Source of the DNA: a bacterium HR19
Lineage (GTDB): Bacteria; Calescibacteriota; Calescibacteriia; Calescibacteriales; Calescibacteriaceae
Length of the DNA: 64,000 nt
NCBI GenBank assembly: GCA_002898315.1
Contig: BEHV01000002.1
Location: 1 to 64,000 of the forward strand
Reading direction: 5' to 3'
In this document: one piece after another, positions 7,656-15,266 of the stretch
How the letters are laid out: each line of letters starts with the position of its first letter
Position numbering within the stretch: the stretch's first letter is position 1
Translations under genes and position numbers: made by a program
Notes under the pieces: generated by a model
The model's input: only the letters and a program-made list of their open reading frames with translations
Database searches by the model: none
What the model was told of the DNA's origin: nothing

Positions 7656-10600
7656 ATGTGGAAGAGAAAGCTTGTTCTATTCACCTTTTCTTTTATATCT
7701 ATGAGCTTTCTTCTTGGGGGAGGACTTGTAAATCAGGGATATTTTACAATTGCAACAGGAAGCATAGGAGGTTTCGCTTCAGATTTTGATTCGCAAAATA
7801 AAAGATGGTTGATAATATATAGAGAAGGTAATGACATAAAATACAGGTTCCAGTATCTTTCAAACCTTGTAACAGATCTGCCAGTTACCTTAATTCCTAA
7901 CAAGCCGCAAGCCGAAAACTTCTCTTTGGTCTTTGGATGTTATAGTGGGACTTGTAGATACGGATTTTCCTTTGAGTACGGCTCCTATACAACTTTTGCT
8001 GTGTTAGACCAGAATGCGAATTTGTTGAACCAGTATCAAATCCCTGTTGAAAGCAAAAATCCAAAAGTTGCTTTTGATAATGAACATGGAAGATTTCTTG
8101 TTGTTTTTGAGTATTCAGATGATATATCGGGAGCTCTCTTTGACTTCGGAGGAAGCTTTCTCAAATCTATCACAATATCTTCTGCTCAGGGCGAGCAAAA
8201 AAATCCCTCTGTTGCTTATGGTCAGGGGTATTACTTGGTTGTCTGGGAAGACAAAAGGGTAGATATCGCAAGAGACCTATACTTTCAGGTTTTAGATTAT
8301 CAAGGTAACACTTTGGGAGATAACGCAGCTGCTTTGTTCGTTCCAAATATGTCAGAGGAGAAACCAAAGGTTTTATTTTACGGTGGGAATTTTCTCATCT
8401 TTCATATCAATAGTTTTTACTGTGATGGAGTTCCTCTTGACCCGGCAGTAGTGGCTTCAAAGAAAATTTGTATCCAGAAAATTCTTATACCATCTTTTAC
8501 TCCTGCTTTTCCTCAATATCTGATGTTTTTTCCGGGGTTAGAAGATTTTTATGTCGCTCCCGTTTCAGATAGCTATTTTGCTATATTCTTTAAGGCAGAT
8601 AACTCGCTGAATTTGGTTATTGCCGAAAGTGATTTTTCACTTCTGGGCACTCCGCCGACTTTGTGGTTCCCATCAAATTTTGAAAACTGCTCTGAAAACG
8701 AAGAAGATTCTTATGCTTTTGTTGTCTCTGGAAGTATCGGAGTTTTCTTTTTACCAAGAGCAAATTATCCGGGAATTACCACTGGACTACTTCTTTTTTC
8801 TTTCCCGGGAAACCTTTCATATTTAAATTTTGATGCGTTTCCTATAAAGATAACTACATCTGAACTACCGAATGCTGTCACAGGCAGAGCTTATCCAGAC
8901 CCTTATACCTTTCAATACCCAACTGAACCCAATAATTACTTCCCGATTTTTGCAACAGGGGGAAGCGGTAGTTATAGATGGTATGCTGTATGGGGAGAGC
9001 TACCCTCTGGTTTAACATTGTCAAGCGATGGTAAAATCTATGGAATTGTCAGTTCCTCTGCTCTCTCAAGGTGCGGTGGAGATTATCCCTGTCCATACAC
9101 ATTTTCGGTTTTTGTACATGATTTTTCTTCTCCAATATCAAAGACCGCATGCAGGAAGATGACGATGAAAGTTTTTCCATTCCCGAAACCAGATATTGTT
9201 ATATCTCCGAACCCTGTTATAATTTGTGTGAGACCTGAGGAGGTTTTCTCGCAGGATATTCAGGTGAGCAATCAGGGTTCTATTGCTTATCTTGCTATTG
9301 AGTATCCGCCGGGGCTTTCACCCGCAAAAACTTTTCCATCAGTATGTACAACAGGTCGTGAAGATAATGGACCATTCCATGTTGAAATATTACCTTCTTC
9401 TGTTTATGTGGATTATGATGAGTTTTCTGCTGTTGCTACTGATGATACAACCTGCTGGTGGAAAGTTGGGAATTGGAAAACCGATAGCTTCACTTTTAGT
9501 TTGAAAGTTACATTTATTTCAGACATACAGGGTAGCTTTAATCAGAAAATCACTTTTGTCATCTTTGAGCCAATTTTGAAACGCTTTGACGATAAAAAAT
9601 ACACTATTGAGATCACCGCAGAGGTTTCTGAACCAGATATAGCCGTGAGTTCGGGAAGCGGAATCTTCCCCTCAAACTGCTCTTATTTTTCATATATCAC
9701 GACCTGTGTGGTGGATTTAGGAGATGTTCCCGTAGAGTTCTCAAAGACGGTATCTATAAATATTCTGAATATTCCACCATTTGATACAGCTTTTTGTGCT
9801 TCTGCTGCTTATCCGATTTTGATATCAAACATATATTCTCCACTTCCGCCGTTTTATCTTATCTTCCCAAAACCTAATATTTCAGGTGTCGCAAAAGTTA
9901 ATACTTCTATTCCTGCTGGGCTTACCTACCCGGTTCAGGTGAGTTTTGCTCCTTCTGATTCGGGAGATTTTGAAGGTTATTTGGTTGTAGAAAATAACGA
10001 TGTTGATGAAGGGGAGCTTTATATAAAGCTCAGAGGAAGGGGGGTAAGACCTGATATAGAAATTGTTCCGGATCAGATAAACTGTGGAACAGCTATAAAG
10101 GGTGTCTCAAAACCCTGTGGTTCAATAAAGGTAAAAAATAAAAGCCCATACAATTTGAGGATAAGCAGAGTGACGCGAGTCGGCTCTTCTTTCTTTTCTA
10201 TATTTCCTTCTCCTCCTATAAATGTCTTTCCGAACTCCGAAGTGAGCTTGAATGTGAATTTCTCTCCTTCTGCAACTGGGATTTTCTCCGCCACATTCTC
10301 TATATATTCCAACGCTAATACTGGTGTTGTTTCTTTCAATGTTTTCGGCGAAGCTCTGGAGTATGGTAGAATTTTCAGTATATATCCGAGGTATGTTGAT
10401 TTTGGAGAGGTTATATTAGGAAATGTTCAAAGGAGAGTTGTATCTGTTTCAAATCTTTCTTCTATGGTGGGCTTTTGGGTGAGGATTGATGAGCCGAATT
10501 TGCCATTTTATTCTGGGCAGGTATCTTTCTTTGTTGAACCGAAAGGAACCGCAGAGTTTGATTTATTTGCTTTACCGACAACAAGAGGAAATTTTTCTTC

Positions 10601-13600
10601 AAATCTGAGTTTAAGGTTTCAAGATGAATTTCAGACGATAAACTTTGAAGAAAATCTAACTCTTTATGTCAAAGGTGTGACTCCTGAGGTAAAAATTATT
10701 CCAGATGGGTTAGATTTTGGGTCGGTTAAAGTTGGGGATACGAAGACGGGAGTTATAGGCGTTGCGAATTTTGGAGATTACCAGCTTTTGATAACAGGAA
10801 TAAAGATGAGCAGTAATTTTTCATCTGGTGTATCTTTTCCTATCTCAATACCTCCGCTCACTTCTTCTAATTTCATTCTGATATTTTCTCCTAAGGTTGA
10901 GGGCAAGGTTGAGGAAGGAGCGGTCATATACTCTAATGCTGGAACTTATGTCATATCTTTGACTGGAATCGGTGTGTCGGAAAAAGTTGAAAACGCTCCT
11001 TCTATAAAAGTTGAGCCAAGAGAAATTGATTTCGGGAAAGTTAGATTAGGGAGGTCAGAAAAAAGATATTTTGCAATTTCTAATGTTGGAGCGGAAACTC
11101 TATTTGTCAGCTCTATATCATCGCTATCGGAAAGCTTCAAAGTGATATTACCTTTATCTTTACCTTTGAGGTTGAATTACGGTGATAGCGTATCGGTCTC
11201 GGTTGAATTTCAGCCGGATTCTGAAAAAGATTTTTCCAGCTCAATTCAGATAGTTTCAAACTCTGTTTCTAATCCTCAAATAGGTGTTTTGGTTCATGGA
11301 GTAGGTGCTGAACCTCATATCTTTGTTGATGAGATTATTGATTTTGGTGGAGTAAAAGTCGGAAAAACAGTTAAAAAGCAGTTGATAGTGAGAAACATAG
11401 GTTCTTTCCCTCTTTCTGTGTCAGATATTGTGCTTTCTGGTTCAGATGTGTTCTTTGTATCTAATCCCGGCTCATTCATTGTGTCTGAAAATCAATCTTA
11501 CAGTATAGAGGTTTCTTTTACTCCAAGTGATTTTGAAAGTTATGAGGCAGAGCTTATCTTGTATTCAGATGATATAACAAAGAATGTTGTTAAGGTTAAG
11601 CTTTTGGGGAAGGGCGGAATGCCTGTGATCGTAATACCAGAAAAAATTATAAGATTCAAGACAATATTTTACGATGAAAGAGATTCTTATCTTCTGCCTG
11701 TTTCAAATATTGGTTCTGCTGCTTCTGATGTTTTCTTGAAGGGTCCTCATCTTCCCGTATTTTCGGCTTCGCAGACATATTTTTCTGTTCCACCTCAATC
11801 AAGCTATTCTCTTGAATTAGTTTTTGCTCCATCTTATATCAGCGGTTTATTTTCAGATAAGGTGACGATTTTCACAGAAGACCCGAAGCTTCCTGAATTT
11901 GAGCTGGAAATTTACGGAGAAGCAAGGAGATTTTTATTCAAGCCAGCTGGTGGTGGATGCTCGTGCTCCTCTTCTTCTCCCGTAGATTTAATTCAATTTC
12001 CTGTGTTGCTTATTCTGATTGCTTTTTGGTTGAGGAGGAAAAAACTTTTTATCTTGACTTTTTCCTTCTTGATTTTTTCCTCTTTTCTTTCAAAAACTCT
12101 TTACTCGCAGATTTCTCAGGATTCAGAAATAAGATCTGATAGCTTCAAAATAGATTTGCAGAACTTCAAACATCAACAAGATATAGCTTCTTTTTCTTTT
12201 TTGAGGGTTGGAAATGTGAGACCAAGAGGGACTTTCGGGTTCACTGTTTTTTCAGGTTTTGCCGAAGCCCCTCTCAGATTGAAAATACTAAAAGGTTCAA
12301 AAGAAATATCATCTCAGATGCTTATTCCTAACTTCTTTTCTGCTGGATTCATTATTTCTGCTGTCCCACTGAATAACCTTGAAGTTTCAGTAGGTGTCCC
12401 TTCTGCTTTTTTTAAATCTTCCTTTGTTCTTTCTGATATATACCTTGAAGCGAAGTTTAATCTGATAAACTATAAGAGTTTCAATCTGTCTCTTTTGCCA
12501 TATCTGAGCTTCCCGACAGGTAAAGCTCCTTTTTCTTATGGTGTTATAATACCTAAAATATCGCTTCTGCCAACTTATGAATTGAAATCAGGTAGTTTCA
12601 AGGTGGTCTTTGCGGGTGAAATTGGTATAAGGTATATTCCAGATGTGAGGGTAGGTGATGTCCTTCTGACCTCGGGAAGTACTCTGGGTCTGGGTTTATC
12701 TTTGTCTTATTTGGGTTTTTCTCTGGCTCCCGAAGTATTTTCTATCTTGCCTTTCAGAGAATTAACCAAAGAAACAGTTCCCGCTGAGTTTTTCTTTTCT
12801 GTGGGGTATAAGTTCCTTCCTGTCTTTCTTTTCAGAATAGGAACCGGCTTTGGAATTTCAGAAGGGATAGGTTCTCCGAGGTTCCGAGTGTTTTCTCTTG
12901 CAACATATGAGATAAAACCTTTGGAGAAACCAAAGAGAAAACTCATCTTCGGTGAGGTGAAAGATAAAGATACTGGGGAACCAATATCTGAGGGATTAGT
13001 TGTTGTTGACAATGCCGGAAGTTTTGCAGAGGTTAAAGATGGAAAGTTTCAGGTTTATTTACCATCATCAGAAGAAAGAAGAAAATATACCTTTTCGGCT
13101 TTTTCTCCCGGATATAAAACAGTTCGCGCTGAATTTTCAGAAAGTGATAAGATTGAGATTTTTATGGAAAAGATTCAACCTCGTCTCGCTCTGAATTTTG
13201 TAGACCGACTGGGTATATCAACAGAAGGAGAGGTAAAGGTGAGATATGAAGATAAGTATTTTTTACTGCGGACAAAAAGCAAGGTTTTTACAGAACCCGG
13301 TCATTATACATTTGAAATTGCGGACCTGAAAAAAGATATATATCTTTCAGATAAAGAGATATCCTGGATCAACATTTTGTATTCTAATCCTCAATTTGAA
13401 GAGAGAGAGCAAAAACAGCTTGCAACAAAGAGCGATGTAAAATCCCGTAAAGGTAAAACAGATAAATCGAAGGATTCAAAGAAGGTTGAAAAGAAAGGTA
13501 AGTCATTTGAGAGTGAAGTTGAAAAAGAACAAAAGCAAGCTCGTCAGGAGATTGCTCGTTATGAAGAACCTTCGGAAAAGAAATCCGATGATTTAGTTTC

Positions 13601-14390
13601 TTCGGAAGAAAGTTCAAAAGAGGTTTTTCAGACCAGGGGAGAAAGAGGAGTTCAAAAAAAATCCACATCAGGAGGTGAAACTGAACAACCTGAAAAAGAT
13701 GTTACCGTTTCGGTAGGAAGTGGGGTGATTTATGAACCAATAGGAAAAGAAAAATCAGGTCATTCAGAAGCTCAAAAAGCTCGCCGTGAAAAAGAGATTT
13801 CATCTGAAACAGTTAACCCGGAAGAGTTGAAAAACGCTCCAGAATATATTCCGGGAGAGAAAACTTTTCCCGGTCCCGCTCAAAAAGGTGTTTTGAGCTC
13901 ATCAAAAAAATTCTATCAGAAAGAAGTTTTATCTTCCGAGAAAGAAAATTTTGAAGCAGGAGAAAAGGAGGTTTCTAAATACATCTACCATGAACTTAAA
14001 TCGCCTCCAAAAGCAGAAGAAGTAGAGGAGAAGATAACTTCTCTTTTTGAGAAGGTTTTAGACAGTTTTCAGGTAAATAGATGGGATATTCCTTCTGCTT
14101 CACTTCCTATGTTAGATGAGATAGCAAAAACGATAAATGAGAATCTTGATAAGATAAAGAAAATTTCAATATTTGGACATGCAGATATTACGGGACCTGA
14201 GGACTGGAACATAGAATTATCTTATCTGCGCGCCTTGGAGATAAGAAGATATCTTTTGAAAAAAGGGGTGAGGATTCCTATTGAACTTGTTGGATTTGGC
14301 TCATCGGTCCCGATCGCTCCGAACGATACTCCAGAAGGAAGAAGAAAAAACAGGAGAATTGAGATAAAAATATACTTTTCGGGAGAGTAG
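7656..14390 (+). CDS. Giant secreted protein: propeller, Ig and ASH repeats fused to OmpA-type barrel protein
   Basis: 2244 aa. In order: signal peptide (about 1-22); beta-propeller-like blades with WEDKR-type motifs (about 25-390); a putative Ig (He_PIG-like) domain (398-510); eight or so tandem modules of about 104 aa with the ASH/choice-of-anchor-D signature DFG-VxxG, starting near 515, 662, 801, 910, 1014, 1119, 1223 and 1326; a Cys1435/Cys1437-Ser stretch, hydrophobic helix and RRKK (1460-1463) resembling a MYXO-CTERM sorting tail; a second signal-like segment (1464-1483); a beta-barrel region (1490-1755); a carboxypeptidase-regulatory-like domain (1765-1845); a charged linker (1920-2115); and a C-terminal OmpA peptidoglycan-binding domain (2130-2244). 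The two halves look like two genes fused in frame. Probably outer-membrane and surface located. Confidence 0.85.
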   Translation: MWKRKLVLFTFSFISMSFLLGGGLVNQGYFTIATGSIGGFASDFDSQNKRWLIIYREGNDIKYRFQYLSNLVTDLPVTLIPNKPQAENFSLVFGCYSGTCRYGFSFEYGSYTTFAVLDQNANLLNQYQIPVESKNPKVAFDNEHGRFLVVFEYSDDISGALFDFGGSFLKSITISSAQGEQKNPSVAYGQGYYLVVWEDKRVDIARDLYFQVLDYQGNTLGDNAAALFVPNMSEEKPKVLFYGGNFLIFHINSFYCDGVPLDPAVVASKKICIQKILIPSFTPAFPQYLMFFPGLEDFYVAPVSDSYFAIFFKADNSLNLVIAESDFSLLGTPPTLWFPSNFENCSENEEDSYAFVVSGSIGVFFLPRANYPGITTGLLLFSFPGNLSYLNFDAFPIKITTSELPNAVTGRAYPDPYTFQYPTEPNNYFPIFATGGSGSYRWYAVWGELPSGLTLSSDGKIYGIVSSSALSRCGGDYPCPYTFSVFVHDFSSPISKTACRKMTMKVFPFPKPDIVISPNPVIICVRPEEVFSQDIQVSNQGSIAYLAIEYPPGLSPAKTFPSVCTTGREDNGPFHVEILPSSVYVDYDEFSAVATDDTTCWWKVGNWKTDSFTFSLKVTFISDIQGSFNQKITFVIFEPILKRFDDKKYTIEITAEVSEPDIAVSSGSGIFPSNCSYFSYITTCVVDLGDVPVEFSKTVSINILNIPPFDTAFCASAAYPILISNIYSPLPPFYLIFPKPNISGVAKVNTSIPAGLTYPVQVSFAPSDSGDFEGYLVVENNDVDEGELYIKLRGRGVRPDIEIVPDQINCGTAIKGVSKPCGSIKVKNKSPYNLRISRVTRVGSSFFSIFPSPPINVFPNSEVSLNVNFSPSATGIFSATFSIYSNANTGVVSFNVFGEALEYGRIFSIYPRYVDFGEVILGNVQRRVVSVSNLSSMVGFWVRIDEPNLPFYSGQVSFFVEPKGTAEFDLFALPTTRGNFSSNLSLRFQDEFQTINFEENLTLYVKGVTPEVKIIPDGLDFGSVKVGDTKTGVIGVANFGDYQLLITGIKMSSNFSSGVSFPISIPPLTSSNFILIFSPKVEGKVEEGAVIYSNAGTYVISLTGIGVSEKVENAPSIKVEPREIDFGKVRLGRSEKRYFAISNVGAETLFVSSISSLSESFKVILPLSLPLRLNYGDSVSVSVEFQPDSEKDFSSSIQIVSNSVSNPQIGVLVHGVGAEPHIFVDEIIDFGGVKVGKTVKKQLIVRNIGSFPLSVSDIVLSGSDVFFVSNPGSFIVSENQSYSIEVSFTPSDFESYEAELILYSDDITKNVVKVKLLGKGGMPVIVIPEKIIRFKTIFYDERDSYLLPVSNIGSAASDVFLKGPHLPVFSASQTYFSVPPQSSYSLELVFAPSYISGLFSDKVTIFTEDPKLPEFELEIYGEARRFLFKPAGGGCSCSSSSPVDLIQFPVLLILIAFWLRRKKLFILTFSFLIFSSFLSKTLYSQISQDSEIRSDSFKIDLQNFKHQQDIASFSFLRVGNVRPRGTFGFTVFSGFAEAPLRLKILKGSKEISSQMLIPNFFSAGFIISAVPLNNLEVSVGVPSAFFKSSFVLSDIYLEAKFNLINYKSFNLSLLPYLSFPTGKAPFSYGVIIPKISLLPTYELKSGSFKVVFAGEIGIRYIPDVRVGDVLLTSGSTLGLGLSLSYLGFSLAPEVFSILPFRELTKETVPAEFFFSVGYKFLPVFLFRIGTGFGISEGIGSPRFRVFSLATYEIKPLEKPKRKLIFGEVKDKDTGEPISEGLVVVDNAGSFAEVKDGKFQVYLPSSEERRKYTFSAFSPGYKTVRAEFSESDKIEIFMEKIQPRLALNFVDRLGISTEGEVKVRYEDKYFLLRTKSKVFTEPGHYTFEIADLKKDIYLSDKEISWINILYSNPQFEEREQKQLATKSDVKSRKGKTDKSKDSKKVEKKGKSFESEVEKEQKQARQEIARYEEPSEKKSDDLVSSEESSKEVFQTRGERGVQKKSTSGGETEQPEKDVTVSVGSGVIYEPIGKEKSGHSEAQKARREKEISSETVNPEELKNAPEYIPGEKTFPGPAQKGVLSSSKKFYQKEVLSSEKENFEAGEKEVSKYIYHELKSPPKAEEVEEKITSLFEKVLDSFQVNRWDIPSASLPMLDEIAKTINENLDKIKKISIFGHADITGPEDWNIELSYLRALEIRRYLLKKGVRIPIELVGFGSSVPIAPNDTPEGRRKNRRIEIKIYFSGE

Positions 14391-14441: not shown

Positions 14442-15266
14442 ATGTTTTGCAAAAGTATAAAACTTGCTTTCTCTTTTTTTGCTGATATGTTCATACCCGC
14501 AATAGGTTTTCTTTTCCTTTTCTCTTTCCTATTCCTTTTTAGCGTTCTGGGAGTTATAAGCTGTATGTATCTTCTGCCAAGTATTAAAGTCGGCTATTCT
14601 GTATATGATGGTAAGTTAGTAAGGGTTGGAGAAGTTTATCCTTTCTCTGTATCTACACAAGATAATTTCCTCCACATATCTTTTTTCTTTGAGCCAGATA
14701 ATCTATGCTACTTTATTTTGTATCCGAGGTCTCATATTGTCTTTGAAGATTCAAGGAAGTATGCTGAATCTCGTGTGTTTGTAAAGGTTAGTAAGTTTGA
14801 GGGTAGAGCAGATGTGAGAGCAAAAAACTGTGATTTTTTCTTTGGAGATTTTTCTATGTCTTCTGGTGAGGTGAGATTATTTAAAAATAAAATAGATATA
14901 GTTGAGGGTAGCGGAAATTATAGAGGAAGAAAGCTAGAAAGAGGGAAGGGTATAGTTTCTGGAAAGATATATGACCTTTTGTCTCCTCCTTCAGTTCTTC
15001 TGCCAAAAGATGGCGATGAGCTTCCGCGTTTTTATTTCAGTTTTGTCCCAGTTGACAGAGCAAAAAAGTATTACATTGAGATATCTGCGGATAGGAACTT
15101 TCAATTTCCGTTTTTGTTTCAGGAATTAGAATCTTACAGATTTTTTCCGCAAGAGATTACAATCATCGCTGTTTCAGATGAGTATTTTTTCAGGTTATGG
15201 TATGAGGATTCGGAAGGTTTTTCTTCAATGTATTCTGAGGTGAGAAAGTTCAGGTTGCCAAAGTGA
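14442..15266 (+). CDS. FecR-like membrane-anchored protein
   Basis: 274 aa with one N-terminal membrane segment (about 17-45) and an extracytoplasmic remainder. The middle region has the beta-rich pattern of FecR-type domains. It is followed by a VSGKIYDLLSPPSVLLPKDG hinge and an Ig-like piece containing AKKYYIEISADRNFQF, as in FecR-domain proteins that accompany OmpA-family genes in spirochaetes and deltaproteobacteria. It lies 51 nt after the giant OmpA-fused gene, so a functional pairing at the cell envelope is likely. A TACATT box ends 6 nt before the ATG. Similarity is weak, so the family call is tentative and no regulatory role is claimed. Confidence 0.5.
   Translation: MFCKSIKLAFSFFADMFIPAIGFLFLFSFLFLFSVLGVISCMYLLPSIKVGYSVYDGKLVRVGEVYPFSVSTQDNFLHISFFFEPDNLCYFILYPRSHIVFEDSRKYAESRVFVKVSKFEGRADVRAKNCDFFFGDFSMSSGEVRLFKNKIDIVEGSGNYRGRKLERGKGIVSGKIYDLLSPPSVLLPKDGDELPRFYFSFVPVDRAKKYYIEISADRNFQFPFLFQELESYRFFPQEITIIAVSDEYFFRLWYEDSEGFSSMYSEVRKFRLPK

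Follow-up and report, generated by a model that had tools for sequence, protein, structure and literature searches.

An in-frame fusion of a surface protein and an OmpA-type barrel protein with an internal sorting-tail-like element in a Calescibacterium-type bacterium, probably an envelope polyprotein

Why should a sorting tail lie in the middle of an open reading frame (ORF)? The question is raised by a gene in the window, i.e., the 64,000-nucleotide stretch of contig BEHV01000002.1 of the hot-spring bacterium HR19 analyzed here, where positions 7656-14390 of the forward strand hold a single open frame of 2244 amino acids, with an ATG at 7656, a stop at 14390, and no internal stops. A first-pass annotation of this DNA, whose coordinates and length were exact, had described an in-frame fusion of a sortable surface protein and an OmpA-type outer-membrane protein, and had left two options: processing that separates the halves, or a membrane hairpin that tethers them. 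At the boundary, residues 1432-1463 (GGGCSCSSSSPVDLIQFPVLLILIAFWLRRKK; 11949-12044) form a sorting-tail-like element, composed of a GGGCSC motif, a modelled transmembrane (TM) helix, TM1 (11979-12029), and the basic stretch RRKK (12033-12044). Directly after it, residues 1464-1484 (12045-12107) form a second hydrophobic stretch, the signal-peptide-like helix TM2, supported by sequence, alignment, and model, and ending at residue 1484 in a putative signal peptidase I site, LYS|Q. A barrel-like region (12231-12911) and an OmpA peptidoglycan-binding domain (residues 2138-2233; 14067-14354; Pfam PF00691, E 2.8e-14) complete the second half, in line with the signal, barrel, and OmpA order assigned to it before. 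We read this single ORF as the precursor of two envelope proteins, probably a natural polyprotein in which a myxosortase-like enzyme would cleave at the tail and signal peptidase would cleave behind TM2, to give a TraAB-like 1:1 pair of surface protein and anchor.

The comparison within the family covered the window's own genome (G000) and four Candidatus Calescibacterium-type relatives (G001-G004; G and L codes are genome and locus labels), three of whose records carry distinct accessions and isolate names. The long fusion was present in four of the five genomes (the window, L041, L043, and L042), with the same frame in G002, G003, and G004, and was not found in G001, an 85% complete genome; all five carried a paralogue that is shorter (1231-1357 codons) and has diverged. 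The alignment showed that all nine junctions were in frame, each as one ORF, and shared the same series: GxGC, a helix, basic residues, a second helix, a small-residue cleavage-like site, and the barrel. The two glycines and the cysteine of GxGC were invariant, while both helices had diverged, and the lengths differed with the frame kept. When the window was compared with its 81% relative L041, the junction (residues 1426-1490) gave a synonymous rate (Ks) of 0.569 versus a nonsynonymous rate (Ka) of 0.074, indicating that purifying selection acts on the joined frame. The corresponding values were 0.454 and 0.070 for the barrel, and 0.513 and 0.217 for the charged, fast-evolving linker (13377-14000; Ka taken over residues 1910-2110). 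Since the open junction frame was kept across the family genomes, an artefact was ruled out, and the sequences indicate that the fusion is real and due to neither chance nor sequencing error. An independent translation start for the second half was also considered and rejected: no start codon was found at a position common to the nine junctions, and L044 has no ATG, GTG, or TTG over the 75 codons from the GxGC motif onward, so that, judging from these codons, read-through is the only way to make its second half.

Next, the sorting machinery was analyzed. One CPBP protease above the Pfam cut-off was found in each of the five family genomes, and the three that were scanned against Mrt_core (NF040914) scored 92.9 (G000), 97.0 (G004), and 86.9 (G003) bits, with MrtP, Mrt_core, MrtC, and MrtX as their best families. 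Among 14 control genomes, 11 had a CPBP protein above the Pfam cut-off, one reached an Mrt_core E value of 1e-10, and none reached the Mrt_core cut-off. The own-genome protein, L053 (match G000:C2:107937-108233, on the same contig and outside the window), has 233 amino acids and contains EELFFR, FMIVH, and HAIGN, all fitting EExxxR, FxxxH, and HxxxN, which we take to be the CPBP catalytic motifs; it is possibly a new myxosortase subfamily. The layout of a MYXO-CTERM tail, i.e., an invariant Cys, a TM helix, and a basic cluster, here of Lys and Arg, was found in the nine junctions, and the window tail is internal instead of C-terminal. A tail-profile search of the own genome revealed unfused proteins with a truly terminal Cys-helix-basic tail: L039 (1472 codons), L048 (1369), L214 (803), L209 (637), L203 (1123), and L211 (643). 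These six proteins could seed a model of a new tail variant. Moreover, the type II secretin GspD was above cut-off in all five genomes.

From these elements a two-step pathway can be proposed. The first half would be exported via Sec until the GGGCSC-TM1-RRKK tail halts transfer, leaving RRKK in the cytoplasm, and TM2 would then enter the membrane again in the role of a second signal peptide, with RRKK as both the end of the tail and the n-region of TM2. TM1 would thus run out-to-in and TM2 in-to-out, with the Cys and the putative signal peptidase site facing the periplasm. A myxosortase-type CPBP protease would cleave at the Cys, probably once this is lipidated, signal peptidase I would cleave after TM2, and the hairpin would be discarded. 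The products would be a surface-anchored propeller/Ig-stalk protein of ~1,410 amino acids, which type II secretion may carry to the surface, and a free outer-membrane barrel with its peptidoglycan-binding OmpA domain; the latter most likely holds or positions the stalk protein in a complex, as TraB would for TraA.

A tail inside an ORF had been called unexpected, a judgement overtaken by a published precedent and by how common the layout is in a second phylum. PMC11980579 describes MXAN_5598 of Myxococcus xanthus as an adhesin with an internal MYXO-CTERM, a barrel, and OmpA, likens it to TraA plus TraB, proposes processing of its N-terminal part, and remarks that such a layout is atypical and that motifs are rarely internal. 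The window ORF likewise joins an adhesin, an internal tail, a second signal, a homologous barrel, and OmpA in one frame. The same architecture was found in L069 of genome G032 (3001 codons), whose phylum we infer to be Myxococcota from the presence of TraB, MYXO-CTERM-type tails, and the setting of the gene: L069 and G107:C1:6776222 lie between ORFs that are presumably FtsA-like and FtsZ-like, given their N-terminal and GGGTGTG signatures, respectively. This setting is the one published for MXAN_5598. Searching 97 genomes of this phylum, we inspected 50 places, chosen for an ORF longer than 1200 amino acids and a match starting at most 7 residues from the query start, with one row (G076, internal stop) dropped. 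The Cys-helix-basic-helix-cleavage-site junction was seen at 49 of the 50 places, in at least 34 of the 97 genomes, and because the junction finder was loose, the weight of this count lies in where the junction falls, which is immediately ahead of the barrel in every case. Profiles of the window-type and Myxococcota-type junction plus barrel, with OmpA excluded, matched each other over the barrel (probability 98.9, E 2.6e-17), indicating at profile level that the two barrels are homologous. The Myxococcota-type fusion barrel alone matched TraB with an E value of 1.6e-35, and scored 28.2 bits against COG4313/Phenol_MetA_deg (PF13557), for which the window barrel reached 17.2 bits, under the Pfam cut-off of 22.

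In this phylum, very long internal-tail fusions of ~5,080-5,220 codons were also observed in one genus (L154, L155, L156, and L161). Other large OmpA ORFs were considered as internal-tail fusions (G018, 3006 amino acids; G053, 1793 and 1096; G048, 933; G021, 930; G039, 760) and rejected, as no such junction occurred in the parts examined. Two of them, G018:C96 (L070, 3006 codons) and G053:C239 (L071, 1793), have an interior OmpA domain, with no sorting tail in the parts examined.

The first-pass annotation had also asked whether relatives carry one gene or two; the single ORF held throughout the family, and split adjacent genes were found in Myxococcota-type genomes. At all 17 TraB loci above cut-off in 26 genomes searched, the upstream ORF, in another frame, ended in a tail, with its stop 8-20 nt ahead of the TraB signal core, and a tail-ended ORF was also found upstream at L130, L132, L138, and L123. 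As fused and split states both exist, the view that there are two functional products is supported. Collectively, the option of processing was strengthened by the CPBP protease of every family genome, the terminal-tail proteins, the cleavage-like site before the barrel, the split pairs, and the proposal published for MXAN_5598 in PMC11980579. In an unrelated family, two members of the genus differ: L204:757-4191 (-) in G002 encodes a GGGGCSSS-tail protein that runs on in frame into a lipoprotein signal (LISC), whereas at L210:88-2808 (+) of G000 a stop follows the tail and the lipoprotein is read from another, overlapping frame. These two loci may be one more case of fused and split states, or one of the assemblies may contain a frameshift.

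Several observations weigh against a processed polyprotein. The CPBP proteases score just below the curated Mrt_core cut-off of 100 bits, and the TIGR03901 (MYXO-CTERM) profile gave no match to the window tail at E 10, nor any match above cut-off in the five family genomes. As the curated profile fails to recognize it, the tail is only MYXO-CTERM-like: the Cys-helix-basic layout noticed earlier stands, and strict membership does not. The window barrel alone had no match to the TraB profile; TraB (NF033763) gave 58.8 bits with the whole ORF against a cut-off of 700, its best stretch lying in the OmpA domain. An adjacent tail-ended ORF lay upstream at only three (L130, L132, and L138) of the 20 loci examined that hold an unfused barrel/OmpA gene. 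The junction finder matched somewhere in 68 of 500 shuffled proteins and missed L047, one of the nine family junctions. Finally, both cleavages are deduced from sequence patterns.

The first two of these points would fit a scheme in which signal peptidase makes the only cut, freeing the second half and leaving the first held in the inner membrane by TM1, with a periplasmic role. We consider this unlikely, since the Cys was invariant in all nine junctions, unfused proteins share the Cys-helix-basic end, and the sole above-cut-off CPBP protein per genome was myxosortase-like in the three scanned. Slightly less credit is given to an uncleaved tether, the second of the earlier options, in which the hairpin of TM1 and TM2 stays in the membrane and the uncut chain ties the displayed first half to the barrel and cell wall. 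The open frame under selection and the presence of both halves on one chain at every family junction agree with it; however, the short paralogues are predicted to have ~25 residues between TM2 and the first barrel strand. At 0.35 nm per extended residue, this corresponds to ~9 nm when fully extended, and the periplasm is wider, so the spacing would be too small for an inner-membrane helix to reach an outer-membrane barrel, and the tether is disfavoured. Moreover, conservation was limited to GxGC and the basic loop and did not extend to the helices themselves, and the split versions function as two chains, TraA and TraB. An autotransporter-like route, where the barrel exports the still-fused first half through its own pore, is suggested by the order of passenger and barrel and by FapF, a polypeptide transporter, being the best Foldseek match of a low-confidence barrel model; nevertheless, it is very improbable, as two hydrophobic helices and RRKK separate passenger and barrel, and homologous barrels exist free, beside free tail-bearing partners. 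Two genes joined through an error of sequencing or assembly, or a programmed frameshift at AGGAGGAAAAAA, might be suspected from the run of six A after AGGAGG (12033-12044) and from the L204/L210 pair; this reading has hardly any credence, as it is refuted at this locus by nine in-frame junctions in five genomes and by the coding-type substitution pattern across the junction.

The remaining parts of the ORF were assigned as follows. The first half begins with a hydrophobic export signal (7656-7730, end approximate), followed by a predicted beta-propeller (residues ~37-324; 7764-8627), for which the AlphaFold2 (AF2) model, built from 4 sequences, had a mean predicted local distance difference test score (pLDDT) of 65.4, and many Foldseek matches were propellers. 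A weak He_PIG immunoglobulin (Ig)-like domain (8880-9122; Pfam E 0.0016, under the family cut-off) and a stalk of ASH/HYDIN/choice-of-anchor D Ig-like repeats (9936-11927, by profile matches) lead to the tail. In the second half, the AF2 model supported TM1, TM2, and an outer-membrane barrel of ~12-14 strands, with FapF, COG4313, NanC, and KdgM among its Foldseek matches; with 4 sequences and a mean pLDDT of 56.6, strand count and fold matches are only indicative. Two Ig-like/CarboxypepD_reg-like domains (12936-13373; AF2 model and weak Pfam matches) precede the linker.

The gene upstream is lpxB. Downstream, 14442-15266 (+) encodes a lipoprotein-like protein of 274 amino acids with the lipobox GVISC, and homologues lie directly 3' of the fusion in seven of the nine loci examined, long and short, the window included (also L038:800-1576 and L059:12024-12809), all of them with a lipobox-like Cys close to the N terminus; none was seen at L060 or L044. 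The cassette of fusion plus lipoprotein thus seems to have been duplicated, which makes the lipoprotein a likely third partner.

To our knowledge, bacterial surface protein complexes are thought to be made from separate genes, and there is hardly any description of envelope polyproteins that two membrane proteases cleave. A literature search on internal signals in bacterial polyproteins gave papers that were viral or unrelated, and another for internal sorting signals with OmpA gave PMC11980579 as the only relevant one. The window fusion is, therefore, a variant of a published, little-studied architecture, in a further phylum that has a myxosortase-like enzyme of its own, and a layout called atypical in print now occurs in two Calescibacterium-type paralogues besides the second phylum. 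As it was found in both phyla, processing is directly testable through the published MrtX/E. coli assay. A broader idea, to which we give a little less than an even chance, is that tail and signal peptide placed back to back form a recurrent splitting cassette of Gram-negative bacteria with myxosortases. If so, a shared basic loop would close the tail and open the next signal, and any surface protein could be made 1:1 with a membrane partner; the cassette would be present in two phyla or more and have partners of two kinds, OmpA barrels and the lipoprotein signal of L204, and could arise by simple in-frame joining of overlapping TraAB-like gene pairs. The occurrence of the layout in both phyla also hints that TraAB-like pairs of surface protein and anchor are broader than kin recognition.

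Among known systems, two lie outside the myxobacterial examples. The Bradyrhizobium FbcH cytochrome b/c1 precursor is a bacterial polyprotein separated via an internal signal sequence, but it yields respiratory subunits and lacks a sorting tail. In Haloferax, a tripartite tag away from the C terminus is reportedly processed by ArtA, a parallel for an internal sorting tag; the system is, however, archaeal and uses another enzyme, and we know of no barrel after the tag. Closer are TraA and TraB of Myxococcus, a tail-anchored surface receptor and an outer-membrane barrel/OmpA partner with genes in that order, with a four-base ORF overlap in M. xanthus and with TraB needed for TraA function, according to PMC3325183 and PMC6626042; the latter adds that TraB may provide TraA with an indirect link to the cell wall. 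By analogy, we propose that the second half of the window ORF may have the same cell-wall-linking role. Unlike the fusion, TraA and TraB are separate chains, with PA14 and Cys-rich repeats in TraA, and they are known for kin recognition and outer-membrane exchange, whereas the fusion is known from its sequence. The closest likeness is to MXAN_5598, with an adhesin-like first half, an internal Cys-helix-basic tail, a barrel, and OmpA in a single ORF, the barrel of the L069 group being homologous to that of the window. The window fusion differs in its host, a Calescibacterium-type bacterium, in having a propeller and ASH repeats with no TSP3 repeats, in lying by lpxB and not between ftsA and ftsZ, and in its second paralogue, its lipoprotein neighbour, and a tail missed by TIGR03901.

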